52,837 bases of DNA from a virus. Made by a program: the position numbers and the translations under genes. Shown here piece after piece: positions 1 through 14,699 of this stretch; within the stretch, counting starts at the first letter, position 1; every line of letters starts with the position of its first letter. The notes under the pieces are model-generated. The model was not told the DNA's origin. It did no database searches and was given only the letters and a program-made list of their open reading frames with translations. The DNA lies in the IMG/VR virus record IMGVR_UViG_3300034013_000371, positions 1 through 52,837 of that record. One strand, 5' to 3'.

Positions 1-426
1 GATGGCGATACCCTTTGGCATTTGGGAGACGTATTGTATGATACCGAATGTCATTTATGGTTAACTTCATTAAAATCGAGGTATCCTAATTCCAAATTTA
101 ACTTAATAATTGGAAATTACGATGAACAACATATAGGATTATTACATGATTATTTCGACCATATTTATGAATCATTTGATTTGTTATTAGGTGATAATTT
201 GGTATATTTAAACCACTATCCAATTAATTGCAAGAAAGCCTTGGATGACACTGCTTATAATTTCGCAATCACAGGACACATTCATGGACTTTGGAAAGTT
301 CAACCAAAGATGATTAATGTCGGTGTTGATGCTTGGCATTTTCGCCCCGTGTCTGAAACAGAAATTCTATTTTGCTGGAATGCCATGCAAAAATTTTATG
401 ACGAAAATGTATTTCCAAATGTTTAA
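1..426 (+). CDS. Calcineurin-like metallophosphoesterase, 5' end outside window
   Basis: The frame is open from base 1, so the gene starts upstream and only its C-terminal part is here. The first visible residues read DGDTLWHLGD, the family's metal-binding DxxxxxxGD block; further on are IGNYDEQH (a variant of GNHD with Tyr for His) and GHIHG near residue 94 counted from codon 22. These are standard metal ligands of binuclear phosphoesterases. The substrate cannot be told. The same architecture (HLGD, GNHD, GHQH) occurs in the gene at 19834-20465, so the phage carries at least two related small enzymes. A TTG at 22 could be taken as a start but would remove the metal-binding Asp block, so I reject it. 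The next gene begins a few bases after the stop. Confidence 0.85.
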   Translation, partial: DGDTLWHLGDVLYDTECHLWLTSLKSRYPNSKFNLIIGNYDEQHIGLLHDYFDHIYESFDLLLGDNLVYLNHYPINCKKALDDTAYNFAITGHIHGLWKVQPKMINVGVDAWHFRPVSETEILFCWNAMQKFYDENVFPNV

Positions 427-448
427 TAAAAAATTACTTACATCTTTT

Positions 449-694
449 ATGATAATCGAAGAGACACAATTCGATGGTTCATCACGATATTTTATTCAGC
501 AACACGTTAAAAAATGGTCTTGGACAAAATTTAAGTATGTATTTGTTTGGGAACATGCAAAAACTTGGATGCACGAAGGTTTTGGATATTATTATTATGA
601 CAATCCAACCAAGGCACAACTGGCCATTGATGAACTTGTAAACGAATCTAAAAAAGCACAGTTTAAACCTATACGAAAGGTTTATACTAAATAA
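449..694 (+). CDS. Small protein of unknown function
   Basis: About 81 residues, rich in Trp, Tyr and Lys (WSWTKFKYVFVWEHAKTW), with no recognised domain. I take ATG 449 because an A/T-rich untranslated stretch lies just before it. ATG 419, in the same frame, would overlap the upstream stop and add ten residues, and is a real alternative. It follows the phosphoesterase on the same strand and is probably cotranscribed. Confidence 0.6.
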   Translation: MIIEETQFDGSSRYFIQQHVKKWSWTKFKYVFVWEHAKTWMHEGFGYYYYDNPTKAQLAIDELVNESKKAQFKPIRKVYTK

Positions 695-700
695 TCAATT

Positions 701-716
701 CCTACCAAACTGGTAT
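701..716 (+). terminator. Weak hairpin after the first gene pair
   Basis: TACCA (703-707) and TGGTA (711-715) form a 5-bp stem closing an AAC loop, followed by A/T-rich sequence without a clean T run. The same CTACC/GGTAG stem words recur in stronger terminators of this window. Possible terminator or processing site. Confidence 0.35.
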
Positions 717-739
717 GATATTAAATAAAAAAATTAAAA

Positions 740-783
740 ATAAAATATTCTATTTTATTAGCAAAATAAATTAAAAATTTATT
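740..783 (+). promoter_or_regulatory. Two AT-rich leader hairpins before the 786 gene
   Basis: ATAAAATA-TTC-TATTTTAT (740-758) and AATAAATT-AAA-AATTTATT (765-783) are perfect 8-bp inverted repeats with 3-nt loops. The second ends exactly 2 nt before the ATG at 786. The first is the complement-swapped form (TTC loop) of hairpins at 22962 and 33612 (GAA loop), so the structure recurs at unrelated genes. Confidence 0.7.
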
Positions 784-785
784 AT

Positions 786-1253
786 ATGAAAAAAATATAC
801 AGCGGAAATTTTACAATTCACGATTTAGGAAAAACCATTTTCTTGGCGGGTTGTAGTCCACGAGGTGAACAAGTTTTAAATTGGCGAAAAGAAGCCGTCG
901 AAATTTTAGAAAAACTTGGGTTTGATGGAACTGTCGTAATTCCCGAACCTGAACATGGAAAATGGGCAAATTACGATGATGTAATTGAATGGGAAGATTT
1001 TTATATGTCAAATTCCGATGTTATTTTATTTTGGATTCCACGTGACATTTCAAATGGAATATTGGGTTTAACATCAAATGTAGAATTTGGAAAGTATTTG
1101 GATTCAGGTAAAATATTTTATGGTCGTCCTAATAATGCAGACAATGTACGATATTTGGATTATTGGTACACAAAACGATATGAAACCAATCCCCATAATA
1201 ATTTACAGGATTTGATTGAAGAATGTTTAGAATTTTTATCAGTTCGGAGGTAG
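786..1253 (+). CDS. Nucleoside 2-deoxyribosyltransferase-like protein
   Basis: 155 residues, the usual size of the family. Visible motifs in order: IFLAG at 18-22, the PEP block near 53-55, WE at 69-70, Asp78 followed by LFWIPR at 81-86, TSNVEFG at 96-102 and YGRP at 112-115. This pattern matches the nucleoside 2-deoxyribosyltransferase-like family (Nuc_deoxyrib_tr2 type), whose characterised relatives cleave or exchange the base of deoxynucleosides. In a phage it would act in nucleotide salvage or base modification, or as an effector acting on nucleotides. It stands between two hairpin-flanked leaders, suggesting its own transcript control. Fold assignment is good; the reaction is inferred. 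Confidence 0.8.
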   Translation: MKKIYSGNFTIHDLGKTIFLAGCSPRGEQVLNWRKEAVEILEKLGFDGTVVIPEPEHGKWANYDDVIEWEDFYMSNSDVILFWIPRDISNGILGLTSNVEFGKYLDSGKIFYGRPNNADNVRYLDYWYTKRYETNPHNNLQDLIEECLEFLSVRR

Positions 1254-1274
1254 TATCTTTGTAACTTAAAAAAT

Positions 1275-1291
1275 CCTACCCGACTGGTAGG
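1275..1291 (+). terminator. CCTACC/GGTAGG hairpin terminator
   Basis: CCTACC (1275-1280) pairs with GGTAGG (1286-1291) around CGACT, followed by TATTTACAATT. The stem is strong for this AT-rich genome but the T tract is broken, so termination may be partial. It lies between the deoxyribosyltransferase gene and the gene at 1330. Confidence 0.5.
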
Positions 1292-1309
1292 TATTTACAA
1301 TTATAAAAG

Positions 1310-1327
1310 ATTAAAACGAGTTTTAAT
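1310..1327 (+). promoter_or_regulatory. Leader hairpin 2 nt before the 1330 gene
   Basis: ATTAAAAC-GA-GTTTTAAT is a perfect 8-bp inverted repeat whose last base is 2 nt from ATG 1330. The loop of two is tight, so the terminal pair probably opens in RNA. Same position relative to the start as at 783, 14697, 20997, 22151, 22980 and 33630. Confidence 0.65.
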
Positions 1328-1329
1328 TT

Positions 1330-2163
1330 ATGAATCATTACAAAATAGGTTCACGTTTACTAAAAACGTTATTCCCTGACAATCCACGTATTCAACAACG
1401 TTGTAAAGATACGGCTGATTACGACATATTGATTGACCATGAACCAACCCAACAGGACAAAGATTGCTTTAAAATGATGTATGGGAACAAAACCGAATGT
1501 CATTATATTCCGCCTGTTTGGAACTATTTGGAAAATATAAAGGAATCCTTGGTTGTGAGGTATGTTGCAGATAATGTACTAAAAGACGTACTATTCACAC
1601 TAAAATCATCACACGTATCATTCGACAAAGTTCATAAGAAAAAAACTTTTTATGATATTTGGTTAATGTCCGAAGAAGGTTGTACAGTCATAGAACCATT
1701 GTTCTACGAATTGCATGAATTTTGGACAAACAAATTTGGTGAAAAGTGGCGAGCGGACTTCACAAAAGAATCCAGTGATTTTTTCAACGATGCTGTTTCA
1801 AGAGAAAATGTTCACGACGATCTACACGAACTGGTCAAAAAATACGATAAACCAGCGTTCAAGTATTTACAAGACGAAGGACAGACAACGGTTTATGTTT
1901 GCCCTGAAAAGTTTAAAAATTTAACGTTTGACATGCAAAAACAAGTAATCATCGAAGAGGCTCAAGTGTTGGCAATTGAACGTGAATTTTTAAATCCTGA
2001 TGGTATTAAGAATCAATATATCGCATATTCAAAGTGGTTGGAAGCAATGGTGGATCGAATTGCCCCACTATGGCAAATACCCTTTATATGTAATAACTTT
2101 CATAATTTATTAAGTCATAAAAACAAGTTTTATGACCATAAACAAAATTTTTATGCAAAATGA
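1330..2163 (+). CDS. Conserved phage protein, nucleotidyltransferase-like N-terminus
   Basis: 277 residues. The start (YKIGSRLL, then TADYDILID near residue 30) resembles the GS...DxD entry of nucleotidyltransferase folds. A central block TLKSSHVSFDKVHKKKTFYDIWLM is, from memory, conserved in a family of T4-like phage proteins of unknown function. The C-terminal half is acidic/aromatic with no recognised motif. No catalytic activity is shown. Its stop overlaps the next ATG (ATGA), so the following small gene is probably translationally coupled. Confidence 0.65.
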   Translation: MNHYKIGSRLLKTLFPDNPRIQQRCKDTADYDILIDHEPTQQDKDCFKMMYGNKTECHYIPPVWNYLENIKESLVVRYVADNVLKDVLFTLKSSHVSFDKVHKKKTFYDIWLMSEEGCTVIEPLFYELHEFWTNKFGEKWRADFTKESSDFFNDAVSRENVHDDLHELVKKYDKPAFKYLQDEGQTTVYVCPEKFKNLTFDMQKQVIIEEAQVLAIEREFLNPDGIKNQYIAYSKWLEAMVDRIAPLWQIPFICNNFHNLLSHKNKFYDHKQNFYAK

Positions 2164-2414
2164 CAAAACAGGAATTGATTGATGAATTAAATAACTTCCG
2201 AAATATGGAGTTTTTGCGATTTCTACCAAACATGGATAAAATCGAATACTTTAGGGTTCGACGAGTTGAGTTTAATATCGACCCGTTTGGTAATATCGCG
2301 GTTTGGTATTTTGAAGATTTGGACTTATATGTTAAGTTTGAATCTAATAATGATACTTTTGGGAAATGTTATGAAGTTGAGCCTAAAACAATAATACAAT
2401 ATATTAAAAAATAA
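2160..2414 (+). CDS. Small acidic protein, paralogue of the next gene
   Basis: 84 residues. It shares layout with the protein at 2451-2747: an N-terminal KQELI helix, a middle block AVWYFEDLDLYVKF (AVWYFPALDCYVRF in the neighbour) and a C-terminal xxVEPKT/VEPVEKT. The two are diverged tandem copies. No function recognised. Starts within an ATGA overlap with the upstream gene. Confidence 0.7.
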   Translation: MTKQELIDELNNFRNMEFLRFLPNMDKIEYFRVRRVEFNIDPFGNIAVWYFEDLDLYVKFESNNDTFGKCYEVEPKTIIQYIKK

Positions 2415-2433
2415 AATAATTAAAACATAAAAG

Positions 2434-2452
2434 ATAAAATTGAAAATTTTAT
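2434..2452 (+). promoter_or_regulatory. Leader hairpin that includes the start codon
   Basis: ATAAAATT-GAA-AATTTTAT; the last two bases of the 3' arm are the A and U of the AUG at 2451. If folded, the stem would hide the start of the gene. This contrasts with the other leaders, where the stem stops 2 nt short of the start. Confidence 0.6.
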
Positions 2453-2747
2453 GCAAACAAAACAAGAATTAATTAAACATCTACAAACGCAAAACTGCTA
2501 CGATTTTCTAAATGCAAACACAGCACCCGAATATTTAGACGTAGCATTACCACCAACAATTGTAGAAAATCTTAAACGTGTTGAACGTACACTTGAATCG
2601 GATGAACAAGTCACGGCGGTTTGGTATTTTCCAGCATTAGACTGCTACGTTAGATTTGACGGTGAGCAATCGTCTTATGATGGTACTGAATGTAATGATT
2701 TATATTTAGTAGAACCCGTAGAAAAAACGGTAATAGTTTATGAATAA
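2451..2747 (+). CDS. Small acidic protein, paralogue of the previous gene
   Basis: 98 residues, same architecture as the gene at 2160: KQELIKHLQ near the N-terminus, AVWYFPALDCYVRF in the middle, LVEPVEKT at the end. The N-terminal half is longer and more diverged. Unknown function; probably an accessory host-takeover protein kept as a duplicated pair. Confidence 0.7.
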   Translation: MQTKQELIKHLQTQNCYDFLNANTAPEYLDVALPPTIVENLKRVERTLESDEQVTAVWYFPALDCYVRFDGEQSSYDGTECNDLYLVEPVEKTVIVYE

Positions 2748-2770
2748 TTATTGACATACCTCTCAACCTA

Positions 2771-2822
2771 GTTAATCATTTGTTAATGACTTGGTTTATT
2801 GGGTTTAACGTTAGTATATTTG
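2771..2822 (+). promoter_or_regulatory. Bacteroidota-type promoter with paired GTTAA elements
   Basis: GTTAAT at 2771 and 2782 (11 bp apart), TTG at 2791-2793, spacer of 21, TATATTTG at 2815-2822. Matches the Bacteroidota -33 TTTG / -7 TAnnTTTG pattern. Expected to start transcription a few bases downstream, just ahead of the hairpin at 2827. Confidence 0.8.
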
Positions 2823-2826
2823 TAAC

Positions 2827-2845
2827 ATCAAATTTTATATTTGAT
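2827..2845 (+). promoter_or_regulatory. Leader hairpin ATCAAAT/ATTTGAT
   Basis: ATCAAAT-TTTAT-ATTTGAT, 7-bp stem with a 5-nt loop, immediately after the promoter and 8 nt before ATG 2854. It would sit at or near the 5' end of the transcript. The same stem with a TTCAC loop follows the promoter at 35174. Confidence 0.6.
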
Positions 2846-2853
2846 TTTCTTAC

Positions 2854-3057
2854 ATGAAAAATATAATATTCATTCAAAACGGTAAAGTAGTAAAAATCAT
2901 TAATGATGATACACTCCCAACCTCGGTTTGTGAACGATTATTATTCATCATTAAAACTGCCGATGAAATTGGCATAAATGTAATTATTAACGAAACTAAT
3001 TATTCTTTTAAAAATGAAAAAGAAACATCAACAACAGGTAGAATTACACAAAAATGA
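2854..3057 (+). CDS. Small protein of unknown function
   Basis: 67 residues, first gene after the promoter at 2771. The N-terminus is hydrophobic/beta-like (IIFIQNGKVVKIIND) and the C-terminus is polar. No recognised domain. It overlaps the next gene by 44 nt in another frame, so its last residues may be constrained by that gene's start. Confidence 0.6.
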   Translation: MKNIIFIQNGKVVKIINDDTLPTSVCERLLFIIKTADEIGINVIINETNYSFKNEKETSTTGRITQK

Positions 3058-3295
3058 AGGTGATTCAAAATCACTTTCAATTACGATTTTAGCGATTGTA
3101 ATATTTTTACTATCAACAGGAATTTCGTATTTCTTGAAAGATATTTTTTCACGTGAAATTATCGCGAAAATATGGGTTGGTGGAACTGTTACATCAATAT
3201 TGTTATTATTTGTCGCAAATGTAACACGAAGGTCTTATCATAACCAAGCGGATAATTATTTAGAATACAAATCAAAAATTAAAAATGTCAAATAA
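3014..3295 (+). CDS. Small membrane protein, two predicted helices
   Basis: 93 residues. A basic/polar N-terminal tail (MKKKHQQQVELHKNEG) is followed by two hydrophobic segments, about residues 23-42 and 55-73, then a polar C-terminus. Both termini are likely cytoplasmic. Overlaps genes on both sides, typical of a tightly packed early operon. Function unknown; candidates are host membrane modification or superinfection exclusion. Confidence 0.65.
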   Translation: MKKKHQQQVELHKNEGDSKSLSITILAIVIFLLSTGISYFLKDIFSREIIAKIWVGGTVTSILLLFVANVTRRSYHNQADNYLEYKSKIKNVK

Positions 3296-3455
3296 TAATC
3301 AGGACAAATCAACACAAAACGCATTAAACAATTTTACAGCAGTTTTCAAGCGGTTGTTTGGAAATGTCGAAAAAGTAGAACAAAACCTCCCAAACTACAA
3401 AGAATGGGAAAAAAAACACAAAGAAAAATCAAAAAACGTTAAAAACAAGTTTTAA
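3285..3455 (+). CDS. Small basic protein, 56 aa
   Basis: ATG 3285 overlaps the previous gene by 11 nt. The 56-residue product is polar with a Lys-rich C-terminus (EWEKKHKEKSKNVKNKF) and a short amphipathic FTAVFKRLFGNVEKV stretch. No recognised domain. It fills the space between two clear genes with normal codon use, and its start overlap resembles that of its neighbours. Confidence 0.6.
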   Translation: MSNNNQDKSTQNALNNFTAVFKRLFGNVEKVEQNLPNYKEWEKKHKEKSKNVKNKF

Positions 3456-3471
3456 CAAAAAAAGGAAAACA

Positions 3472-3963
3472 ATGATCTTCAAATTCAAAGAAAACAGTCA
3501 CTTTTCAACTCCCCGATGTCCTAAATTCTTTTTACGATCTATTAATGGATCGGTAAAATTCACCAATTGTGTTTATCAATTAGATAAAGGCGATCAATAC
3601 GATTGGAACAAGTTAACGGGTATTAGTTTTAATCCGTTAATTCCAAGTCAAAATGCAATAATGGTTGGGTGGCGTTGGAATCCGACAATAAACAAAGTAC
3701 AGGTTTGTGCTTACTTTAATGTTAACGGTACAATTGTATCACCCGAAATAGTTTTAGGCCCGATTTTAAATGCTAATCCGACTGACCTAGTAAACTTTGA
3801 AATAACTTATAATAAAGTAACGATTTGGGTCGGTAATGAAAAGATTGAAATTGATGTACCAAAAGCATTAAAGAAAAGTTACCTAACGTCGTTTAGAATC
3901 CAACCTTATTTTGGTGGTAATCGACCAGCACCAAATGATTTAGAACTTAACTTAAATTTTTAA
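3472..3963 (+). CDS. Beta-rich protein of unknown function
   Basis: 163 residues with alternating hydrophobic strands and many Trp, Asn and Pro residues (MVGWRWNPTINKVQVCAYFNVNG), suggesting a beta-sandwich fold. It resembles small beta-sandwich proteins that occur in Bacteroidota and their phages, but I cannot name a family. No signal peptide. An A-rich spacer precedes the ATG. Confidence 0.65.
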   Translation: MIFKFKENSHFSTPRCPKFFLRSINGSVKFTNCVYQLDKGDQYDWNKLTGISFNPLIPSQNAIMVGWRWNPTINKVQVCAYFNVNGTIVSPEIVLGPILNANPTDLVNFEITYNKVTIWVGNEKIEIDVPKALKKSYLTSFRIQPYFGGNRPAPNDLELNLNF

Positions 3964-3968
3964 AATAA

Positions 3969-4136
3969 ATGCGAAATTATTACCATTTTTTCTTTGCTTC
4001 ATGCTTACTTGGATCACTGATCGGTTGGCAATTCACGACTAAACCATATCCAACCTTTGCTATACCGATTATTATTATTTGGTTGGGTTGGTCGGTTGCA
4101 GATCAACTTTTTAAATTGATTGAAGATGAAAAATAA
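3969..4136 (+). CDS. Small membrane protein, 55 aa
   Basis: ATG 3969. Two hydrophobic segments, FFFASCLLGSLIGW (about 7-20) and FAIPIIIIWLGWSV (about 30-43), and a charged C-terminus. The stop overlaps the next gene by 11 nt. Likely an inner-membrane accessory protein. Confidence 0.6.
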   Translation: MRNYYHFFFASCLLGSLIGWQFTTKPYPTFAIPIIIIWLGWSVADQLFKLIEDEK

Positions 4137-4383
4137 ATATATTGAATGTATTTTACAAATAAAAGAAAATGAAACTGGTATTATACATGAAAAAACACAC
4201 ATGTGCTTGATTGATGATGAAACAGGCAGACCTCATATTTTTATATGGGAGGAAGGTAATTTTGCGTGTGATTGTAATCGTGGAACATTTTTCGATTCAC
4301 GTGAAATAGAATGTTCGGATGGATTATTTTCAATTAACCTATTGGATACCGACAAAACAATTTATTATTACCAAGAATTTTAA
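4126..4383 (+). CDS. Small Cys-containing protein of unknown function
   Basis: 85 residues from ATG 4126 (an upstream TTG at 4120 adds two residues and is less likely). Middle block RPHIFIWEEGNFACDCNRG; four Cys in total but no spaced CxxC pairs, so zinc binding is uncertain. Last gene before the terminator at 4390. Confidence 0.65.
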   Translation: MKNKYIECILQIKENETGIIHEKTHMCLIDDETGRPHIFIWEEGNFACDCNRGTFFDSREIECSDGLFSINLLDTDKTIYYYQEF

Positions 4384-4389
4384 ACACAA

Positions 4390-4426
4390 CCTATCTATCA
4401 ATTAAAACTGGTAGATGGGTTTTTTT
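4390..4426 (+). terminator. Rho-independent terminator
   Basis: An 11-bp stem with two G-U pairs forms between 4390-4400 (CCTATCTATCA) and 4409-4419 (TGGTAGATGGG), followed by seven T. It ends the early group that begins at 2771. Confidence 0.8.
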
Positions 4427-4519
4427 CAATTAAATTTTCAATTTAATCTTTTTAAATTAAATCTACCAGTCAGGTAGGAATTATTCACTAAAACTTATAT
4501 AAACAAAATAAAACAAAAG

Positions 4520-4538
4520 ATCAAATTAAAAATTTGAT
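4520..4538 (+). promoter_or_regulatory. Leader hairpin of the glycoside hydrolase gene
   Basis: ATCAAATT-AAA-AATTTGAT, a perfect 8-bp stem 15 nt before ATG 4554. No TATCTTTG-type promoter is visible between the terminator at 4390 and this point, so how the gene is transcribed is unclear; a late promoter is possible. A second inverted repeat, ATTAAATT-TTC-AATTTAAT, lies just after the terminator. Confidence 0.5.
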
Positions 4539-4553
4539 TGAAAGATTTTACTT

Positions 4554-6359
4554 ATGAAAACACAAACATTATTAACTCTATTACTATTCCCTATTATGAT
4601 GTGGGGACAAATCAATGATAAACTATATTCAATCACGGTCATTCGAGGACAATCCACAGGTGCGTTACAATTATTTGATGGAAATACACAGTCGGGGTGG
4701 TTTCCGGGGTGGAATGCTGGTGATTATCCAGTATTAGCAAAAATCAAATTTACTGAAAAAGTTAAATTTAATAAATTAAAACTGTTTGATTGGGTTGGAC
4801 AACCAAACTTTACACTAATTAACCAAACGGATACAATCAATGTAAAATTGAATCAATTCAATAAATGGCAAACCAAGACATTTAAAACAATGGAAGTCGA
4901 TGAAATATTGATTTCCATTTCTGATATTCAAGGGGATATACCAATCACCGAACTGGAGTTTTATTATGATTCTACTGTGACTCCTCCCAACACTAAAAAG
5001 TTAACTGGAGACGCATTATCAATTGGTACAAATGGGTTTCATTGGATACCAACCGACCTAATTCCATGTCAAAATATCAGGATTTATCAAATGGTTCAAT
5101 GGTCTTGGACTCCGAAAGGTTTAGCGGTTAATCCAACCGTACAGGCTGATGGAATGTATGATGAATATTATCAGGAATTAAAGAATAAAAATATTACTGC
5201 AATTCCGTGTATCAACAAAGTTCCAAACTGGTCACACGAATCACCAAATGACCCTGAATGGGCAGATTTAAAGATGAATGATATTGGTACTAATCCAAAC
5301 GATCCGTTGTCTTACAGGTCAATTTCACAATACGGATTTCAATTGGCAGCAAGGTATGGTAGGGTTAAATATCCATCACAGGATTTAAAGGTAAATCAAG
5401 AGCCTAGGTGGAATGGTGATATTGTGAATTTGTTGCAAAGTGGACTAGATTTACTGTCTTATATCGAACTAGAAAATGAACCCGACCGACCTTGGAAGAA
5501 TCCAACGCATAAGTACACAGCCGAGCAATTTGCCGCCTTTATGAGTGCGGTTTATGATGGTCACGAAGGACGTATGGGAAAAGGTTATGGTATCAAAACG
5601 GCTGATCCATCAATGAAGGTTGTGATGGCTGGTATATCGGCTATCAATACGAAATATATTGAAGATATGAATCAGTGGTTTAAACAAAACCGAACGGATC
5701 AAATATTTGCGGCTGATGTTATAAATGTTCATCATTATTGTAATTCGGCAAATCCACCATTTCCAGCACAAACGGTTAATTTATATTTGGGGGATGGTAT
5801 TGATCCTATAACTGATAAATTGTATCAACGTTTAAATGTTTTAAAAAATAAGGTAGGGAGGGATTACCTATCCACCAATAATAATACTAACAATGATATA
5901 TCAAATATTGACCCGTTGGGTAGGAAAAATGTTAAATTTTGGTTCACCGAATTTGGCTATGATACAAATCCATGTTCAACGCCACTATGTCAGGCAGTTG
6001 AAAATGATTCAATACAGGCTGAATGGATATTACAATCTTTTTTAATTGCTATTAAGGCTGGATATGAAAAGTCGTTTGTTTATAATTTAAGTGATGAAAT
6101 GAGTGCTGATAAGGGATATGTTTTTGGAAGTAGCGGTTTGTTAAATAACAATTTAGAGGTTAAACGATCACATAAACGGGTAGTTTGGTTAACTGAAATA
6201 TTAAATAATAAGCAATACTTAGGCGAAACAAAAGAAGGTTGGATGGTTTTTACTGGTGGGTTGGTAATAAAAATATCACCAAAAGTTGAAATTATGAAAA
6301 TTAAAAAAGGGAAATATTATTTAATTTCACGAAAAATGGCTAAAAAATTGCCGAAATGA
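4554..6359 (+). CDS. Secreted clan GH-A-type glycoside hydrolase with N-terminal beta domain
   Basis: 601 residues. Residues 1-19 are a signal peptide (basic start, TLLTLLLFPIMMW core, cleavage near WGQ). Residues about 20-140 look like a discoidin-type beta-sandwich (LQLFDGNTQSGW...KLKLFDW). From about 150 a TIM-barrel follows. IELENEP places a candidate acid/base Glu309 at the end of strand 4, and FWFTEFGYD places a candidate nucleophile Glu466 at strand 7, the clan GH-A pattern. The product should be exported to the periplasm or outside and could degrade host or neighbour-cell polysaccharide. A secreted rather than virion-bound enzyme is unusual for a phage. The family and substrate cannot be fixed by eye. 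The gene stands alone between terminator structures. Confidence 0.8.
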   Translation: MKTQTLLTLLLFPIMMWGQINDKLYSITVIRGQSTGALQLFDGNTQSGWFPGWNAGDYPVLAKIKFTEKVKFNKLKLFDWVGQPNFTLINQTDTINVKLNQFNKWQTKTFKTMEVDEILISISDIQGDIPITELEFYYDSTVTPPNTKKLTGDALSIGTNGFHWIPTDLIPCQNIRIYQMVQWSWTPKGLAVNPTVQADGMYDEYYQELKNKNITAIPCINKVPNWSHESPNDPEWADLKMNDIGTNPNDPLSYRSISQYGFQLAARYGRVKYPSQDLKVNQEPRWNGDIVNLLQSGLDLLSYIELENEPDRPWKNPTHKYTAEQFAAFMSAVYDGHEGRMGKGYGIKTADPSMKVVMAGISAINTKYIEDMNQWFKQNRTDQIFAADVINVHHYCNSANPPFPAQTVNLYLGDGIDPITDKLYQRLNVLKNKVGRDYLSTNNNTNNDISNIDPLGRKNVKFWFTEFGYDTNPCSTPLCQAVENDSIQAEWILQSFLIAIKAGYEKSFVYNLSDEMSADKGYVFGSSGLLNNNLEVKRSHKRVVWLTEILNNKQYLGETKEGWMVFTGGLVIKISPKVEIMKIKKGKYYLISRKMAKKLPK

Positions 6360-6364
6360 TATTA

Positions 6365-6538
6365 TTTTCCAAATTTTGGAAAAAGGGTTGGGTGGGGGAA
6401 TAATAAAGCACATACTTAGTCCGTGTACAAAATTTTAGACACATATTTACTATTACATATAAGAAAATCCTACCACCCAACCCTTTTTCCAAAATATGGA
6501 ATTATTCCAAAAATTGGAAACTTTCCAAAATATGGAAA
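6365..6538. repeat. Four TTCCA/TGGAA palindromes
   Basis: Short inverted repeats at 6365-6383 (perfect, TTTTCCAAA/TTTGGAAAA), 6487-6501, 6505-6519 and 6522-6538, all built on TTCCA...TGGAA with A/T centres. Three lie in tandem within 52 bp. They could be operators for a dimeric regulator or sites for a nucleoid-type protein. They partly overlap the long inverted repeat of 6369-6499. Confidence 0.7.
6369..6499. repeat. Long inverted repeat after the hydrolase gene
   Basis: Arms 6369-6395 and 6473-6499 match as reverse complements over 27 positions with one mismatch (23 exact), separated by 77 nt. The arm core is GGAAAAAGGGTTGGGTGG. The transcript of the hydrolase gene would end in a very stable stem. 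It may act as terminator, 3' stabiliser or recombination site. Confidence 0.8.
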
Positions 6539-6549
6539 ATAATGAAAGT

Positions 6550-6575
6550 CCTACCAACCTTGGTGGGATTTTTTT
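6550..6575 (+). terminator. Rho-independent terminator facing right
   Basis: CCTACCA (6550-6556) pairs with TGGTGGG (6561-6567) including one G-U pair, followed by A and seven T. It ends rightward transcription from the hydrolase gene just before the converging gene at 6574-6852. Confidence 0.8.
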
Positions 6576-6852
6576 ATTTAATGAATTTTATAAGAAAAAT
6601 AGTAACGGTATAGCCGTACTCACAAAGAATAGAATTAAAAAGCCGCTCATGCTTAATTATATGATTTTCTAACCTTTCAAGTTCTGCCAAATTTGCGTTA
6701 TTAATTAAGGAGTATTCATTTGTCTCCCAAACTTGCATATTTTTATAATTTGGTAAAATTTCAGCATTATGATAATTTACTGATGCTTTTAATTTTAACA
6801 TTTGGTCGATTATACCGCCTTGGTCTTTTGGGTTTAATTGTAAAGTTTGCAT
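6574..6852 (-). CDS. Small leftward protein of unknown function
   Basis: 92 residues, on the strand opposite to nearly all neighbours. The middle is helical with heptad-like leucines (NNANLAELERLENHIIKHERLF) and the C-terminus is hydrophobic (YTVTIFLIKFIK). It is very likely real because a complete promoter for this strand lies at 6885-6925. A lone, oppositely transcribed gene beside a control region is a common place for a regulator, but no DNA-binding motif is recognised. Confidence 0.75.
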   Translation of the reverse strand: MQTLQLNPKDQGGIIDQMLKLKASVNYHNAEILPNYKNMQVWETNEYSLINNANLAELERLENHIIKHERLFNSILCEYGYTVTIFLIKFIK

Positions 6853-6884
6853 AAAATTTAAATGTTTAACTATTAATTATGATA

Positions 6885-6925
6885 CAAAGATAAGTCCATT
6901 TATCCTTCCCCACAAGTCCATTAAC
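6885..6925 (-). promoter_or_regulatory. Leftward Bacteroidota-type promoter
   Basis: Read on the minus strand: GTTAAT (6925-6920), TTG (6915-6913), 20-bp spacer, TATCTTTG (6892-6885). It matches the rightward promoters including the GTTAATGGACTTGTGG wording also seen at 14594. Drives the 6852-6574 gene. Confidence 0.85.
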
Positions 6926-7062
6926 AATTCATTACAAATTTAAAATTATAACTGTTTGGTAGGCAAAACAAAATGTTTATTTTAACTATTCCTTAACTTT
7001 TATGTTAACATAAAATGAACATTAATTCTTCACAATTTTTAATCAATAAATCTTCACAATCT

Positions 7063-7149
7063 CACACGTGTGTATGCGTTCGCGTATGTACACGCACGTG
7101 CTTGCTCGCATTATGTGTGCGAGTGCATGTGTCGCGATACGCACGCAGG
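7063..7149. other. Alternating purine-pyrimidine tract (Z-DNA-like)
   Basis: Strict pyrimidine-purine alternation runs for 17 bases (7063-7079) and 21 bases (7081-7101) and continues in shorter pieces to about 7149, rich in CG, CA and TG steps. It contains palindromes CACACGTGTG and GCACGTGC and a CTCGCA/TGCGAG stem. It contrasts sharply with the AT-rich surroundings. Confidence 0.75.
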
Positions 7150-7240
7150 AATTATTATTAATTTAAAATAAAAGAAAAACTAAAGCAAAAAGAAAAACAA
7201 AGAAACCAATACCCTCAAAAATTATGAAAAAATAAACCCT

Positions 7241-7323
7241 CACCAGCCCGATGGGTGGAAAACCTCGTTTTTCACACACGCGATTTTCCGCCGTGCTGAC
7301 CGTAGGGAACGCAATAGGCACGG
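7241..7323 (+). ncRNA. Candidate structured RNA, GC-rich hairpin chain
   Basis: A GC-rich island with no reading frame. Possible stems: CACCA/TGGGTG (7241-7257), GTGGAAAA/TTTTTCAC (7255-7275) and CCGTGC/GCACGG (7291-7323). The first two overlap and would be alternatives. The strand is a guess. No known RNA family recognised; it lacks group I, hammerhead and tRNA signatures. No promoter is visible just upstream. Confidence 0.35.
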
Positions 7324-7431
7324 GGAAAATTGTACCTTGGACTTTTGCTATAAGTACCTCTTTTTATATATTTTTAATTGTATTTACATACTTTACATCA
7401 ATTATCAATTAATTTTTAGTATTTTTATGTA

Positions 7432-7469
7432 ATTTTCATGTATTGTTAATATTTTCATGTATTGTTAAT
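7432..7469. repeat. Perfect 19-bp tandem repeat
   Basis: ATTTTCATGTATTGTTAAT occurs twice in direct contact (7432-7450, 7451-7469). A degenerate copy start (TTTTTATGTA) precedes it. Confidence 0.85.
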
Positions 7470-7678
7470 TAATTCATAAATACTAACAATTAGCGTGTAT
7501 GTGTTCATGTTTCAGACAATAGTTGTTTAGATTGGTTTATTTGGTATCATATATCAATGTATTTTCGTTTTTCATAGGTTGGTTGGTGTATTCATACGGT
7601 TCAGGTATAGATCGTTCAAAAAATGGTTGTATATTGATTCAGGTTGGTTTTACATAATCATTAGCATTCACCGACATT

Positions 7679-8063
7679 TATCAACTTCCTGATAGGTAGG
7701 GTAGAAATTAATAAAAATACTTCACAATTTTCATTGTTTTTCATTACTTTAATCTTCACAATTTTCATAAAACAAATTGTTTAAATGTTAAAATTTTAAC
7801 TATAATTCATTTATTATTTTAACAGTTTTTTAAAGTTTGAGTGTAACGATTAGTACCTACCAACCCTATCAAATTTATTCATTTTGACCCAAAATTATCA
7901 AAAAACCTGATAGATAAGGGTAAGTATTAATAATATTGATATACATGGTATTATTAATAATACTATTCATTATTTTACAGTATATTCATGCTTTGATTAT
8001 TCCGTACCAACCTATCATATCAACTGTCAATGCCGTTCAAAAATTATCAAAAAACCTTGATAG
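7679..8063. repeat. Three copies of a TATCA/TGATA hairpin with GGTAGGG tail
   Basis: Stem-loops at 7679-7694, 7895-7913 and 8044-8063 share TATCAA...CCT(T)GATAG followed by (G)GTAGGG or ATAAGGG and an A-rich tail. The flanks of the last two also share ATTTTGAC/TGTCAA-like and TTTTACAGTAT...ATTCCGTA words, suggesting decayed copies of a unit of about 150 bp. A perfect 16-bp palindrome GTATTATTAATAATAC lies at 7948-7963. Confidence 0.6.
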
Positions 8064-8360
8064 GTAGGGAAAGAAATTGACGTATATATTCACCGATTTA
8101 AACGATTATCTTTTTGGTTGGATGGTATTTCATTGTTTTACAGTATAATGGTCATTCCGTATCAATACTATTCATTTTGACAGGAATATTCAGGATAACA
8201 ATTGACGTTTCGTGATTTTTAATGTTAATTAAACTACTCATGGGGGAAGGGGTTTACCTCCCACCTGTCGTCCGGTCATATTAAGATTTTTTTTAATATA
8301 AAATGACATGGTTTACGTTGAAACCGTAATGATTGTCAACTAAGGTTTTTTTTTAATTTT

Positions 8361-8412
8361 GTTAACAGTTAGTTAATGGTATTGTTTATTGGGTTGGTAG
8401 GACGTATCTTTG
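8361..8412 (+). promoter_or_regulatory. Bacteroidota-type promoter with paired GTTAA elements
   Basis: GTTAAC 8361 and GTTAAT 8372 (11 bp apart), TTG 8382-8384, 20-bp spacer, TATCTTTG 8405-8412. The upstream part GTTAACAGTTAGTTAATGG is shared with the promoters at 10818 and 14583. Drives the small gene at 8441 and possibly a non-coding transcript. Confidence 0.9.
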
Positions 8413-8440
8413 TATCGTAATTAATAAATCAATCAATATT

Positions 8441-8572
8441 ATGGAAAATTTATTCATCGAATGTATCAAAATTGAATTATCTGCATACGCTAATGTTTCA
8501 TTAAACATTCTTGCAAATACCATTCAGTACTATGCTGGATTGGGAGGATTCAACACTAAATCAATTGAATAA
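8441..8572 (+). CDS. 43-residue peptide
   Basis: ATG 8441 is 28 nt after a strong promoter and an A/T-rich leader. The peptide begins MENLFIECIKIELS and is mildly hydrophobic and helical, ending in GLGGFNTKSIE. It is the only plausible coding sequence in the control region. It could be a small effector or a leader for a downstream RNA. No homologue recognised. Confidence 0.5.
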   Translation: MENLFIECIKIELSAYANVSLNILANTIQYYAGLGGFNTKSIE

Positions 8573-8698
8573 TGGCATTGTGTTGTATCAAGTGCTGGAA
8601 TAACCTTCCAACCTAACATTTAAAATTTATTATATTTATTAAACGTTTAATGTTTGCCAAATAATGTTTTGTTTTAACTCACTAATCAGTATAAAATA

Positions 8699-8738
8699 GG
8701 GGGGGTAATATAGGGGTCATTTTGGGGAGGTAGGGGGG
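8699..8738 (+). other. Canonical G-quadruplex motif
   Basis: Four G runs of 7, 4, 4 and 6 (8699-8705, 8713-8716, 8724-8727, 8733-8738) separated by loops of 7, 7 and 5 nt. This fits the strict G4 pattern on the plus strand and stands out in an AT-rich genome. It lies downstream of the small gene at 8441. Confidence 0.8.
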
Positions 8739-8834
8739 TGAATTAAGCGTTAATTTCGGTGAAAAAGGAAGAGGTTGGGTGGTCGTAATACCCCTTCATT
8801 GTTCGTGGATCATTTTTTTGTCCCAAAAAAGACC

Positions 8835-8962
8835 TCCCTAACGGAAGTAAAATTATAAGTTATCCCTAACGGTTGGCTGTATATTATCCCCACCAATAAT
8901 TAAACTAAATAAATATTATAATATTATCCCTCCCTAACGGTAAATACATCCATCCCTAACGG
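8835..8962. repeat. Four direct TCCCTAACGG repeats
   Basis: Copies at 8835-8844, 8863-8872, 8931-8940 and 8953-8962, same orientation, in very AT-rich DNA. The last two extend to TCCCTAACGGTAAAT. A second word, ACCAATAATTAAA, occurs twice among them. The layout resembles iterons of replication origins or clustered operator sites. Confidence 0.75.
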
Positions 8963-9003
8963 TAAATTAATAATTCTACCAATAATTAAATCACTATCAA
9001 TAT

Positions 9004-9279
9004 ATGAACATAACGAAAAAATTACATGATGAACTCATAGAATGTGGGTTTTTGTTTCCAAAGAAAAATATTAACCAAGCAGAAGGTCTTTTAGCAAAAG
9101 TTGAATTTTATTTCTTAGATCAATGGCAAACAATTCATATACGTAATAACGATAAAACTACTTTAAAAGATGTTATGGGAATACTGGCTGATAAAGTATT
9201 TGAGTTAGGAGTAGAAAAAGGGATTAAAAAAGGTAAAAAGGAAGTAGGAACGTATTTAAAAGACTTAATTGAAGAATAA
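9004..9279 (+). CDS. Small protein of unknown function
   Basis: 91 residues: mixed N-terminal part (FLFPKKNINQAEGLLAKVEFYF) and a Lys-rich C-terminal helix (GIKKGKKEVGTYLKDLIEE). First gene to the right of the control region. No domain recognised; no promoter of the usual type within the preceding 300 bases. Confidence 0.65.
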   Translation: MNITKKLHDELIECGFLFPKKNINQAEGLLAKVEFYFLDQWQTIHIRNNDKTTLKDVMGILADKVFELGVEKGIKKGKKEVGTYLKDLIEE

Positions 9280-9306
9280 AAATTATATCATCAAATTTTA
9301 ATATCT

Positions 9307-9636
9307 ATGAACAATAATGTAATTTCGGAAGAAACATACCTTTCCATCAACGGTGCATGTCGTCAGGATATAGGCGATGCTGCTTTTCATAAAAACAAAG
9401 GCAACAATTCCGACAAAACATGGTCTAAAATGGTTAACGCTCAAGCCGAAAAAGACCGAAATCTAATTGAACGTCGTGAAGAATTGCGAAAGGAATATTG
9501 GGAAAAGGTTAACACTGGTGAATTAAGACCACCCAATCGTTTAGAAAAATTAATATCAATTGCAAACGGTCATCCTGATAATGAAAGTGTGATTGCTGCA
9601 AGACGAATCTTAGATAAAAATGGAATCAAATATTAA
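9307..9636 (+). CDS. Charged helical protein of unknown function
   Basis: 109 residues, strongly charged (AEKDRNLIERREELRKEYWEK) with a C-terminal segment on small helical repeats (SIANGHPDNESVIAARRIL). Cytoplasmic, no cysteines beyond one, no recognised domain. Part of the short run 9004-9976. Confidence 0.65.
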   Translation: MNNNVISEETYLSINGACRQDIGDAAFHKNKGNNSDKTWSKMVNAQAEKDRNLIERREELRKEYWEKVNTGELRPPNRLEKLISIANGHPDNESVIAARRILDKNGIKY

Positions 9637-9637
9637 A

Positions 9638-9976
9638 ATGGAAACTACCAACCTAGCCGAACAAAAAGGTTTTACGTTTACATTAATCATTAAACCATAC
9701 ATTCGTAAAAATTGTGCGATGGATGATATGCGGGTAATTTACAGTGACAAAACTTGTTTGGTTGCTAAAAATTCAAAGTTTGGTGGGTTGTATATTCATC
9801 CAACTGGAAAAATAATCAAAGGTCGTTTTGTGAAATTTGCAGGTAGTAACCGTTATCCAATTTTGATTGCTGAAAAGGAAGTTCATATACGATTTGAAAA
9901 CTTTCCAACCAAACCAAATATAATTACGGATCAATATAAAACACAAGATATTATAACATTGTTAATGGATAGTTAA
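9638..9976 (+). CDS. Small protein of unknown function
   Basis: 112 residues from ATG 9638, 1 nt after the previous stop. An in-frame ATG at 9620 would overlap the previous gene by 17 nt and is less likely. The opening (TTNLAEQKGF) resembles TANLAKTKGF at the start of the protein at 18258, so both may share a short N-terminal motif. The rest is beta-rich with a basic patch. Confidence 0.65.
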   Translation: METTNLAEQKGFTFTLIIKPYIRKNCAMDDMRVIYSDKTCLVAKNSKFGGLYIHPTGKIIKGRFVKFAGSNRYPILIAEKEVHIRFENFPTKPNIITDQYKTQDIITLLMDS

Positions 9977-10012
9977 TGATATTGTACACTCCCAACCTAT
10001 CCAGTATCTTTA
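9961..10012 (+). promoter_or_regulatory. Bacteroidota-type promoter with paired GTTAA elements
   Basis: GTTAAT 9961 and 9972 (11 bp), TTG 9982-9984, 20-bp spacer, TATCTTTA 10005-10012. It overlaps the end of the previous gene. The spacer (ACTCCCAACCTATCCAG) is nearly the same as in the promoter at 10818, suggesting recent duplication. Confidence 0.85.
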
Positions 10013-10032
10013 CATCAAATTTAAAATAAAAT

Positions 10033-10197
10033 ATGAAAAATATGTCTGATTCTGATTATCGCTTTTGGTATTTCGATTTGGGGAAGGATATGCAATTAGC
10101 ATATTTTACACTCTATAAGTTTTGTGAAAATATAGATTCTGTAACCATTGAAGAAATAAAAAATTTATATAATGCAATTAACACAAATTTAAAATAA
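10033..10197 (+). CDS. Small aromatic protein, 54 aa
   Basis: ATG 10033, first gene after the promoter. 54 residues (MKNMSDSDYRFWYFDLGKD...), acidic and rich in Tyr and Phe. No family recognised. Its stop is directly followed by the ATG of the next gene (TAAATG). Confidence 0.6.
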   Translation: MKNMSDSDYRFWYFDLGKDMQLAYFTLYKFCENIDSVTIEEIKNLYNAINTNLK

Positions 10198-10368
10198 ATG
10201 GATAATTTAGAATTAAAAATTCGGATAATCAACGAAATCACATCCCTCCAAGTTGCGTACTTTAAAAGTATTGGGATTGATCGAAAAATAACAGCAGCGA
10301 AACTTAAATACCTTAATGATAAAAATTACCAAGAATTAATAGAAATTAAAAATAAATGGAACAGATAA
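10198..10368 (+). CDS. Small helical protein, 56 aa
   Basis: ATG 10198 abuts the previous stop, and the stop overlaps the next gene by 13 nt. 56 residues, basic, predicted helical (MDNLELKIRIINEITSLQ). Unknown function; the close packing supports it as a real gene. Confidence 0.6.
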   Translation: MDNLELKIRIINEITSLQVAYFKSIGIDRKITAAKLKYLNDKNYQELIEIKNKWNR

Positions 10369-10829
10369 AAATTGATTTTAACAAAACCCAATTCATTGGG
10401 TTCAATAAAAAATGTGCCAAATTTGAAGGCTTTATATTCAGTCAAAATTATGAAAATTATGACGAATTTTATAGCGTTTGGGAAACTGATGATGGGGGTG
10501 TTTGGTATAAGGAAAAAGATTTTATTGAAAATCCCAACCCATCGGAATTACATTTTGTAAAGGTGGATGGTAAAGTTTTAGACGATTATGAATATTCTTT
10601 AAGATATGATTCAGACTGGAACTGGCTCATGCGTGTTAAGAATAAAATTTGTCAAATGGATATAGTTTACGAATTTGAAACTACTTTTAATAATATGTAT
10701 TATTGTCATATTCGCCAAGCATATAAAGATTCATTTGGAACAATATACGGTGAACAATATCCAACCGAACTGGAAGCAACAATTGATGTAATTGATAAGT
10801 TTTTAGATTGGTATAATGTTAACAGTTAG
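10356..10829 (+). CDS. Protein of unknown function
   Basis: 157 residues, acidic and Tyr/Trp-rich, with repeated beta-hairpin-like segments (YSVWETDDGGVWYKEKDF; YSLRYDSDWNWLMRV). No catalytic motif. Last gene of the unit started at 9961; the next promoter overlaps its 3' end. Confidence 0.65.
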   Translation: MEQIKIDFNKTQFIGFNKKCAKFEGFIFSQNYENYDEFYSVWETDDGGVWYKEKDFIENPNPSELHFVKVDGKVLDDYEYSLRYDSDWNWLMRVKNKICQMDIVYEFETTFNNMYYCHIRQAYKDSFGTIYGEQYPTELEATIDVIDKFLDWYNVNS

Positions 10830-10869
10830 TTAATGGTATTGTGTACTCCCAACCTATCCAGTATCTTTG
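10818..10869 (+). promoter_or_regulatory. Bacteroidota-type promoter with paired GTTAA elements
   Basis: GTTAAC 10818, GTTAAT 10829 (11 bp), TTG 10839-10841, 20-bp spacer, TATCTTTG 10862-10869. Drives the operon 10907-12853. Confidence 0.9.
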
Positions 10870-10906
10870 TATCATTAATAATTAATCATTCAAAACAATT
10901 AAAATT

Positions 10907-11251
10907 ATGTCAGAAATAATTAATAAGAATTTCATTTTAGGAAAAAAAGAAGTATCCACTTTCACACTCGGTCAAGAAACAACTTTCTATTGTGAAAACA
11001 AAGAAATTATGATCGAGTGCGGAGTTCCTACCATACACGATGTGCGGGTAGCATTGTCGCTAATGTTTCGTACAAAACCACGAACAGATACAACCGAATA
11101 TTCGGCAAATGAATACAGACTAAGATATACAAACATTTATGGTCGTAAAATTATGCCAGTTTGTAACCCACCATTTTGGAATTATTCACCCAATATATTC
11201 AACGATGTATGGGAGTGGTCTTTTAAATTTTCACCATCATTTATCAAATAA
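10907..11251 (+). CDS. Protein of unknown function
   Basis: 114 residues, first gene of the operon. Mixed alpha/beta with a Pro/Trp-rich C-terminal region (VCNPPFWNYSPNIFNDVWEWSF). Shares its last A with the ATG of the next gene, implying coupled translation. Confidence 0.65.
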   Translation: MSEIINKNFILGKKEVSTFTLGQETTFYCENKEIMIECGVPTIHDVRVALSLMFRTKPRTDTTEYSANEYRLRYTNIYGRKIMPVCNPPFWNYSPNIFNDVWEWSFKFSPSFIK

Positions 11252-11481
11252 TGAAAAAAACATTTAAATCGGATCGTTATCCGCGAATCATATTCCATTG
11301 TTATGATGGAGGTGTTTATAACGAATTTTTATTCGACGACACTAAAGAACCATTGTTTAATGGTATTATTAATGACATCGAAGTTTTATGCGAATTGGAA
11401 GTTATTGATGAAACAGACTCCGATAATTTTTACACTGGTCAGGAATGGTATATGCCTTTTTCCGAACTTACAGAAATTTAA
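11251..11481 (+). CDS. Small acidic protein of unknown function
   Basis: 76 residues (KSDRYPRIIFHCYDGGVYNE...), acidic, likely a small beta fold. Starts on the last base of the upstream stop. No homologue recognised. Confidence 0.6.
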   Translation: MKKTFKSDRYPRIIFHCYDGGVYNEFLFDDTKEPLFNGIINDIEVLCELEVIDETDSDNFYTGQEWYMPFSELTEI

Positions 11482-11487
11482 AATTTT

Positions 11488-11838
11488 ATGAATAATATAT
11501 ACTCAACACAAGTTTATTTAGATGTGCATTATTTTGATAATGATGTAAATATTGTACTTGGTATTAGAAATAATAATAATCGGTGTTTATTTATTACATG
11601 GTTAAATACTAACAATCCATGTATCGAAGAATTTAATTTTGACAATTATATCCAACCCGACGGTGAAGTTGAATATTATAATAATATTAATTGTTACGAT
11701 ATTAATGACATAACAGAAATGTTATTAAAAGCAGTTGATGTAATGACCGACGAACAATTGGATATTTTAATAAAACATAATATTCATTTGGATTTATTGA
11801 TACATACTAAAAATCCATCCCTTTTTCTTAATAAATAA
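11488..11838 (+). CDS. Acidic protein of unknown function
   Basis: 116 residues, Asn/Asp-rich (VYLDVHYFDNDVNIVLGIRNNNN) with a C-terminal helical part. Low-complexity Asn runs follow from AAT codons. A small AAATT/AATTT inverted repeat lies just before the ATG. Confidence 0.6.
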   Translation: MNNIYSTQVYLDVHYFDNDVNIVLGIRNNNNRCLFITWLNTNNPCIEEFNFDNYIQPDGEVEYYNNINCYDINDITEMLLKAVDVMTDEQLDILIKHNIHLDLLIHTKNPSLFLNK

Positions 11839-11848
11839 ATTTAACAAT

Positions 11849-12196
11849 TTGACAAAAGAATTAATTGCCAATAAAATAAAAGAACTTGAAAACGAAATTC
11901 AAATTCTTAAATCGAAACAACCCACCGCACAAAGTGGATTTGATAAATTTGTCACGAATCGGTGGACTGGTGAAGAACTATTGCGTAAACATAAACTAAC
12001 TGATTTTGGTAGGTGGGATGTGTATGGCGAAGACCCTAATCCTGATTTTAACGGCCCTCATGTTGCACCATTTTTAGGTACTGTCGAAGGTACATTGCAA
12101 AAAGCAATTGAATGGGCGGTCGGTCAACGGGAATGGATGGCTTGGGGTGGGGGTGGAACTATTAAACCAAACGTTACGCAAATTATTAAAGTTTAA
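11849..12196 (+). CDS. Protein with Gly-rich C-terminal motif, TTG start
   Basis: 115 residues beginning at TTG 11849; no ATG occurs until near the C-terminus, so a TTG start is needed. An N-terminal coiled coil (ELIANKIKELENEIQILKSK) is followed by a compact domain (WTGEELLRKHKLTDFGRWDVYGEDPNPDF) and MAWGGGGTIKPN near the end. I recall similar small domains in other phage proteins but cannot assign a function. Confidence 0.65.
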   Translation: MTKELIANKIKELENEIQILKSKQPTAQSGFDKFVTNRWTGEELLRKHKLTDFGRWDVYGEDPNPDFNGPHVAPFLGTVEGTLQKAIEWAVGQREWMAWGGGGTIKPNVTQIIKV

Positions 12197-12220
12197 CAAA
12201 ATAAAATATAAAATTTAAAT

Positions 12221-12706
12221 ATGGGATACACAACACAATTTGACGGACAATTTAATTTGTCCAAACCATTAACAGATGAACAAAGTACTTATCTACACAC
12301 ATTTTCGGGAACTCGTCGTATGAAACGAAATTCTGATATACTAATGACCCAATATAATGGTCAACATGGTTTGAATGGTAAATACGGATTAGACGGTGAA
12401 TTTTTCTGTTTTGATGACGGAGATTATGGACAATCTGAAACATCGGATATTGTCAATTATAACCACCCCCCAAGTACCCAACCATCCTTATGGTGTCAAT
12501 GGATTCCAACCGAAGATAATATGGGAATCGAATGGGATGGTAATGAAAAATTTTATTGTTATGATGAATGGTTAACATATATCATTGACAATTTTTTAAA
12601 ACCTTGGGGTATAACGTTATCGGGTGAAGTCGAATTTCAAGGTGAAGAAAATGACGATACTGGTAAAATAATCGTAGTTGATAATGTTGTAACAATTGAA
12701 AAATAA
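12221..12706 (+). CDS. Conserved phage/bacterial protein family of unknown function
   Basis: 161 residues. The sequence matches, from memory, a widespread conserved family: MGYTTQFDGQF, LTDEQSTYLHTFSGTRRM, HPPSTQPSLWCQWIPT, EKFYCYDEWLTYIIDNFL, PWGITLSGEVEFQGE and VVDNVV in order. It occurs in unrelated phages and bacteria; no function is known to me. Full length, no truncation. Confidence 0.75.
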   Translation: MGYTTQFDGQFNLSKPLTDEQSTYLHTFSGTRRMKRNSDILMTQYNGQHGLNGKYGLDGEFFCFDDGDYGQSETSDIVNYNHPPSTQPSLWCQWIPTEDNMGIEWDGNEKFYCYDEWLTYIIDNFLKPWGITLSGEVEFQGEENDDTGKIIVVDNVVTIEK

Positions 12707-12853
12707 ATGACACAATATAAAATAACAATTCAAAATACAGACTTCATTGAAGTCGATCTTTATTTTAAAGGAAATAGTATCTTAGACATAATCAATCAAG
12801 TCTATGAAAAATTTGGTTGGGTGGATATTATAAGAATTGATAAAGGATTTTAA
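12707..12853 (+). CDS. Small protein, 48 aa
   Basis: ATG 12707 follows the previous stop directly (TAAATG). 48 residues (MTQYKITIQNTDFIEVDLYF...), a likely small beta-alpha-beta unit. Last gene before the terminator at 12865. Confidence 0.6.
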   Translation: MTQYKITIQNTDFIEVDLYFKGNSILDIINQVYEKFGWVDIIRIDKGF

Positions 12854-14697: not shown

Positions 14698-14699
14698 AT

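Follow-up and report, generated by a model that had tools for sequence, protein, structure and literature searches.

Phage enzymes that strip capsule or slime from bacteria are known mainly as tail parts. Enzymes acting apart from the particle have also been described: Bacillus phage phiNIT1 codes for the polymer-degrading proteins PghP and LevP, and PMC6966330 reports that PghP is apparently absent from the virion and set free at burst and that LevP is not a tailspike. GH32 enzymes from the phages SP10, phiNIT1 and SPG24 have no signal peptide, and non-classical secretion was predicted for them (PMC4595243). PMC4497714, searched for terms on virions and signal peptides, contains no passage on either. 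Among cellular enzymes, PslG of Pseudomonas aeruginosa is described in PMC7237758 as a predicted periplasmic protein with a signal peptide and a resemblance to GH39, which disassembles biofilm exopolysaccharide and has E165 and E276 as key residues.

Here we present a predicted exported glycoside hydrolase encoded by a virus, together with its relatives, its predicted fold and its genomic surroundings. The window, i.e. the whole stretch of DNA analysed, is a virus record of 52,837 bases (IMGVR_UViG_3300034013_000371), possibly a fragment. Like PslG (5bx9, 4zn2, 9g17), the window protein is predicted to combine a signal peptide, a barrel of the clan GH-A type, two key glutamates and a carbohydrate-binding domain, but identity is 13-15%, PslG is the product of a cellular gene, and its binding domain is mostly C-terminal, whereas the putative one of the window protein is N-terminal and F5/8-like. 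With PghP and LevP it shares the character of a phage-coded polymer degrader acting, as predicted, outside the virion; PghP is reported to be released at burst, whereas the window protein carries a predicted export signal, of the classical type that the phage GH32 enzymes do not have. From the tail-borne depolymerases it differs as a separate and apparently exported protein, although two relatives (L016 and L036), which are of tail type by appearance, share its catalytic domain. Non-virion phage enzymes that strip host polymers are a known kind; the present one differs in having a classical export signal, in belonging to an unnamed sequence family and in sharing its domain with tail-type proteins. 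The literature searched offered no direct precedent for a phage glycosidase that is secreted by means of a signal peptide, and one may still exist in print.

Gene and genomic context

An open reading frame starting with ATG occupies exactly positions 4554..6359 of the plus strand and codes for 601 amino acids, the stop codon lying within these coordinates. Judged from sequence comparison it is a real gene, because viral relatives exist at 34-44% identity. Annotation of the window is partial: of the 66 ORFs listed, 20 besides the target were compared with PHROGs and 10 with Pfam. Tail genes of the T4 type are represented by a baseplate hub (13150-13956, minus strand) and a baseplate wedge (30562-32421). 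The glycosidase gene is no piece of host DNA at the edge of a contig, since genes of phage families lie on both sides of it, phrog_6944 (1330-2163) on one and the baseplate hub (13150) on the other. The nearest recognised tail gene among the scanned window ORFs is the hub gene, about 6.8 kb away with its start at 13150.

The gene is flanked on the plus strand by two terminator-like hairpins of 13 pairs each, one before it (4388..4421) and one after it (6544..6573). Sixteen terminator-like sites were counted in positions 1-15000, against 6.8 expected from shuffles, and these two are the only ones with 13 pairs. In a separate control of the plus strand over the same 15 kb, stems of at least 12 pairs occurred at three sites, namely the two flanking ones and 4891-4917 inside the gene, the latter being absent from the 16 sites of the first scan; at least one stem of 12 or more pairs was seen in 3 of 60 shuffles and two such stems in none of 60. 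The pair of hairpins is consistent with a single-gene transcription unit. Single-gene units of such a kind are called phage 'morons'.

The host comparison rests on one structural protein (42551-44023), which is most similar to a Microcystis phage protein (42.5%), followed by Flavobacterium phages (36.3%), an uncultured phage and a Rhodothermus phage. The host is possibly a member of the Bacteroidota, though the best match is from a Microcystis phage.

Sequence family and relatives

A tblastn search of 50,697 phage records delivered a single relative, in the 636 kb uncultured phage LR756504.1 (34% identity), which PMC9723777 lists among megaphages; six of the nine family members, used as queries in the phage records, each found only this same record. 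A first scan of viral contigs gave no relative, while later ones added L003 and L004 and then L015 and L016. The members known by then were used to derive a degenerate DNA pattern for MSA-x-[YW]-D-G-H-x-G. It matched nine stretches, all in records with a family member, of which six were already known and three new (L031, L034 and L036). The members' own records, 10 in all, were searched with a profile of the nine catalytic domains, and each contained a single copy. The family as defined here comprises nine distinct viral proteins, i.e. the window protein and eight relatives, with L005 and L006 being the same protein as L001 and counted once. The records of the relatives may be fragments.

L001, L015 and L034 are stand-alone proteins. 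The catalytic domain is also carried by L016, which has at least 2163 amino acids and contains fibronectin type III domains, and by L036 with 1228 amino acids; by eye, the size and make-up of both suggest tail-type proteins. In the tree the window protein groups with L003, L004 and L031 (support 91/92, drawn open and not starred), and L016 and L036 form a clade of their own (100/100). The nine proteins begin in different ways: three with a signal peptide, one with a lipobox-like start and three without a signal, the remaining two being domains of very large proteins. Tentatively, and with rather less than even confidence, we propose that the nine proteins make up a separate family of phage-borne glycosidases with MSA-x-x-D-G-H-x-G as its mark. 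Its catalytic head would have been passed among proteins of tail type, enzymes without a signal, surface lipoproteins and enzymes exported by Sec; some phages would thus let the living infected cell externalise a depolymerase before burst and not carry it on the particle.

One distant match, L027 on a viral contig of 8 kb (23% identity), was left out of the nine-member alignment. Its product at 3770-4954, a different phage protein, matches GH10 above and GH39 below the Pfam cut-off, and lies among genes that by eye resemble those for portal, head and capsid; it is possibly a virion enzyme. In the record of L031 an open frame at 10737-11177 contains a repeated peptide of the NSTVSAYG type.

Relatives were sought mostly in viral collections, and cellular genomes were sampled through short motifs. 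Two such cellular scans, with two short motifs each, gave no relative among 152 and 593 motif-matching stretches, respectively, and three plasmid searches also gave none. With a GC content of 0.345 and a codon usage distance of 0.120 the gene falls inside the spread of the 31 window genes compared with it, and a recent transfer from the host, as judged by composition, was not seen.

Signal peptide

The predicted Sec signal peptide comprises residues 1-18 (4554..4607, plus strand), with a likely cleavage between G18 and Q19. The N-terminus, MKTQTLLTLLLFPIMMWGQ, has one lysine (K2), a hydrophobic core and a glycine (G18) preceding glutamine. A layout with glycine before glutamine is common in signal peptides of Bacteroidota. 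A charged n-region, a hydrophobic core and a small residue before the cleavage site, by which Sec signals are recognised, are all present, the signal having been judged by eye and by hydropathy.

The best 12-residue hydropathy of the signal peptide, MKTQTLLTLLLFPIMMWG|Q, is 2.26; when the protein's own residues were shuffled 20000 times, 208 of the shuffles reached this value. Higher values occur in 6 of the 96 window ORFs of at least 60 amino acids that start with ATG, and therefore hydropathy alone does not single out the glycosidase. Stretches of 19 residues above 1.6 are absent from the whole protein, the signal included. Taken alone, hydropathy is modest evidence for a signal peptide.

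At the same position the two nearest relatives also start like a signal peptide, but in different letters (hydropathy 2.76 in L003 and 2.72 in L004), with hydrophobic cores that end in A. The start of L031 is lipobox-like (FCSC, hydropathy 2.17), and the N-terminal values of the other five members range from 0.49 to 1.53. Because L003 and L004 keep a signal-like start and L031 a lipobox-like one, the reading as an export signal is strengthened, and the prediction that the window protein is exported by Sec is well supported by the sequences compared.

Domains and predicted structure

A putative F5/8 type C-like domain covers approximately residues 23-139 (4620..4970, plus strand; borders drawn by eye). 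Positions 32-79 of a profile built from four members match PDB entry 3f2z, which we take to be F5/8-like, with E 0.0039; weaker matches, 0.032 (2kd7) and 0.038, are to two entries annotated as putative chitobiase. The Pfam family PF00754 appears below its cut-off in two relatives (L003, 1.4e-4; L004, 0.0035), and the Pfam search of the window protein gave no match to it.

The catalytic (beta/alpha)8 barrel was assigned to residues 154-551 (5013..6207, plus strand) from the alignment and an AlphaFold2 model. An initial model, based on four full-length sequences, was poor (pLDDT 37) and was discarded; the N-terminal domain modelled poorly. The model from the nine catalytic domains is a (beta/alpha)8 barrel with a pLDDT of 81.2 and a pTM of 0.86, in which 27 of the 398 residues are below a pLDDT of 50; its residue n corresponds to residue n+153 of the protein. 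Strand 150-153 of the model is followed by N155-E156, i.e. N308-E309 of the protein (5475..5480), where E309 is the predicted acid/base just past beta-4. The family signature MSAVYDGHEG occupies residues 330-339 (5541..5570). Strand 236-242 ends in H393-H394-Y395 at the end of beta-6 (5730..5738), with H393 and Y395 invariant in all nine domains and H394 variable. Strand 308-315 contains E313, which is E466 (5949..5951), the predicted nucleophile in beta-7. N308, E309 and E466 are invariant in 9/9 catalytic domains. In the clan GH-A layout an Asn-Glu pair closes beta-4 and a Glu closes beta-7. The assignment of the window catalytic domain to this clan by its modelled barrel and the positions of its glutamates is well supported.

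Sequence libraries yielded little. Pfam gave no row for the window protein at a threshold as loose as E 10, with HMMER filters dropping most rows above 0.1, and the best rows elsewhere (PHROGs 0.051, NCBIfam 0.11) were treated as chance; for the nine catalytic domains the best rows were NCBIfam 0.062 and PHROGs 0.048. The Pfam GH39 model PF01229 matched none of the nine at E 1 or better and was not found in the window protein at E 10. The GH5 model PF00150 exceeds its curated cut-off in one of the nine (L015, 25.0 versus 23.5) and gave nothing for the window protein; at E 1 the nine domains gave two further Pfam rows, one domain matching PF14587 (GH30) at 0.025 and one an unrelated viral family at 0.034. 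By these profile searches the window protein has no convincing Pfam, NCBIfam or PHROGs family. Against PDB sequences the single window protein gave a chance row only and a six-domain profile no match. The nine-member profile placed PslG first at E 0.77, which is not significant alone; in this weak alignment E466 is paired with a PslG glutamate that is E276 when counted from the chain offset.

Structural comparison of the model was more informative. Foldseek ranked PslG first (5bx9, E 2.9e-11, TM 0.55, 13% identity) and the Bacteroides GH39 enzyme 5jvk fourth. With VIA-align 2, 5jvk, from Bacteroides cellulosilyticus WH2, gave the best Z, 27.0 (283 residues, 2.7 A), but it is a cellular enzyme with 17% identity. 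PslG entries held the second to fourth places (Z 25.4-25.6), followed by GH39 enzymes at 23.4 or less and GH1 at about 21-22; the best 50 PDB rows all had Z of at least 21. The structural neighbours include enzymes of GH39, GH10 and GH5 that by name are xylanases, xylosidases, mannanases and galactanases. Top rows in BFVD were mostly proteins of uncultured phages, several of them named GH5, at 11-16% identity. The nearest solved folds to the predicted barrel are GH39-like, and a shared fold does not make the window protein a member of GH39.

An earlier note on this DNA had described a two-domain glycosidase with a true signal peptide and both catalytic glutamates in place. The F5/8-like N-terminus is suggested by a profile match (3f2z), the C-terminal (beta/alpha)8 glycosidase is supported by prediction, and the glutamates by the invariance of the predicted E309 and E466 in 9/9; the signal peptide is borne out, as a prediction, by the sequence and the two nearest relatives, with hydropathy contributing modestly.

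Proposed function

The gene, the export signal, the domains, the barrel and the invariant glutamates come from computation; for cleavage, outer-membrane passage, substrate and benefit to the phage we infer the following. The infected cell would send the glycosidase across the inner membrane via Sec, after which the signal peptide would be removed. As no outer-membrane secretion domain was seen (no Pfam match at E 10), the enzyme may remain in the periplasm until lysis. The F5/8-like domain would keep the enzyme on its glycan, and the GH39/PslG-like clan GH-A barrel would cut the chain by a retaining two-glutamate mechanism with E309 as acid/base and E466 as nucleophile. The most likely target would be exopolysaccharide or capsule made by the host itself, whose removal would let progeny leave and reach neighbouring cells. 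With slightly better than even confidence we regard the window protein as a stand-alone, non-virion, Sec-exported PslG/GH39-like enzyme that degrades host exopolysaccharide. If this is true, a phage enzyme that has a classical export signal and is akin to domains of tail-type proteins in other phages allows one to ask whether clearing matrix from the infected cell pays, and a clearly marked, small group of nine enzymes with a PslG-like fold offers candidates for tests on biofilm glycans.

That the enzyme clears capsule or matrix, as the note had suggested, fits the PslG-like fold, but the fit is by predicted fold only, and folds of the GH39, GH10 and GH5 type also cut plant glycans. There is accordingly a minor but real chance of an auxiliary metabolic enzyme, which would digest an external polymer of plant, algal or other origin and provide sugars for the infected cell during infection. 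Enzymes of plant-glycan type are among its structural neighbours; a binding domain joined to a signal peptide is the layout of polymer-degrading enzymes; and a GH5 enzyme from Stordalen Mire, described in PMC6786970, is a virus-coded, active endomannanase, but it belongs to GH5 and to a plant-polymer context. Against this use, the scanned ORFs of the partially annotated window included no recognisable gene for sugar uptake or catabolism, and PslG, one of the two closest folds, acts on self-made exopolysaccharide; the PslG-like fold and the apparently tail-borne relatives would favour host exopolysaccharide over food polymers. Even less probable is a captured host gene that arrived recently and has no selected role in the phage, a reading to which we give hardly any weight. 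The combination of signal peptide and binding domain is typical of cellular secreted enzymes, but all relatives found, in searches mostly of viral collections, are viral, and the codon usage distance is an ordinary one for the window. The note's view that a host origin is likely therefore finds no backing in the motif-seeded cellular scans, the plasmid searches or the composition of the gene.

A place in the virion is improbable for the window protein, though the domain recurs in L016 and L036, two proteins of tail-type appearance; the window protein would then be a tail-associated depolymerase whose N-terminus is hydrophobic by chance. L016 and L036 stand apart in a separate clade, the window protein has two domains only and no recognised attachment or fibre domain, its signal-like start recurs in L003 and L004, and its gene is distant from recognised tail genes. 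Export in place of incorporation into the virion, as proposed in the note, is thus fair for the window protein, which is stand-alone, has a signal peptide and is encoded between hairpins about 6.8 kb from a tail gene, but it need not hold for the family, 2/9 of which are domains of tail-type-looking giants. It is reasonable, from these sequence features, to consider the window protein absent from the virion, and the catalytic domain probably also serves in virions, to judge from L016 and L036. Equally unlikely is a periplasmic lysis helper, which would assist the endolysins by attacking glycans of the envelope or polysaccharide trapped in the periplasm. In L003 and L004 the glycosidase gene is preceded by an Amidase_2 gene that ends 1.6 kb and 1.0 kb ahead of it, respectively, and other genes lie in the interval; this is consistent with late use in these two phages. 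In L004 its start codon overlaps the stop codon of the gene just before it (TGATG). However, 7 of the 10 records, which are possibly fragments, have no Amidase_2 match, the window included, and in the L031 record it lies about 31 kb away; moreover the predicted fold is GH39-like and not a known muramidase fold. With Amidase_2 near the gene in two of ten records, far in one and absent in seven, a general role in lysis was dropped.

Other features of the window

About 0.6 kb before the glycosidase gene, positions 3472-3963 code for a protein of 163 amino acids, without a Pfam or PHROGs family, that by eye is all-beta and possibly a binding protein. Downstream, about 2.1 kb (6853-9003) contain no ORF of at least 90 amino acids, and around 7060-7150 alternating CG/CA/TG steps are abundant by eye, in contrast to the AT-rich remainder of the window. 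The gene at 35286-36278, downstream of the baseplate wedge gene, has a DnaJ domain (30.5 bits, Pfam cut-off 27.8), and its product also matches phrog_13942 of unknown function. Two different RNA ligases are encoded at 16922-17968 and 22983-23960, matching phrog_562 (a ligase/tail-fibre attachment family) and phrog_548. The ORF at 25902-26459 has a lipoprotein-like start (MNKISLLTVVLILSNC...), and not far from it are N-terminally hydrophobic ORFs at 24022 and 27212; these are possible lysis or exclusion genes.
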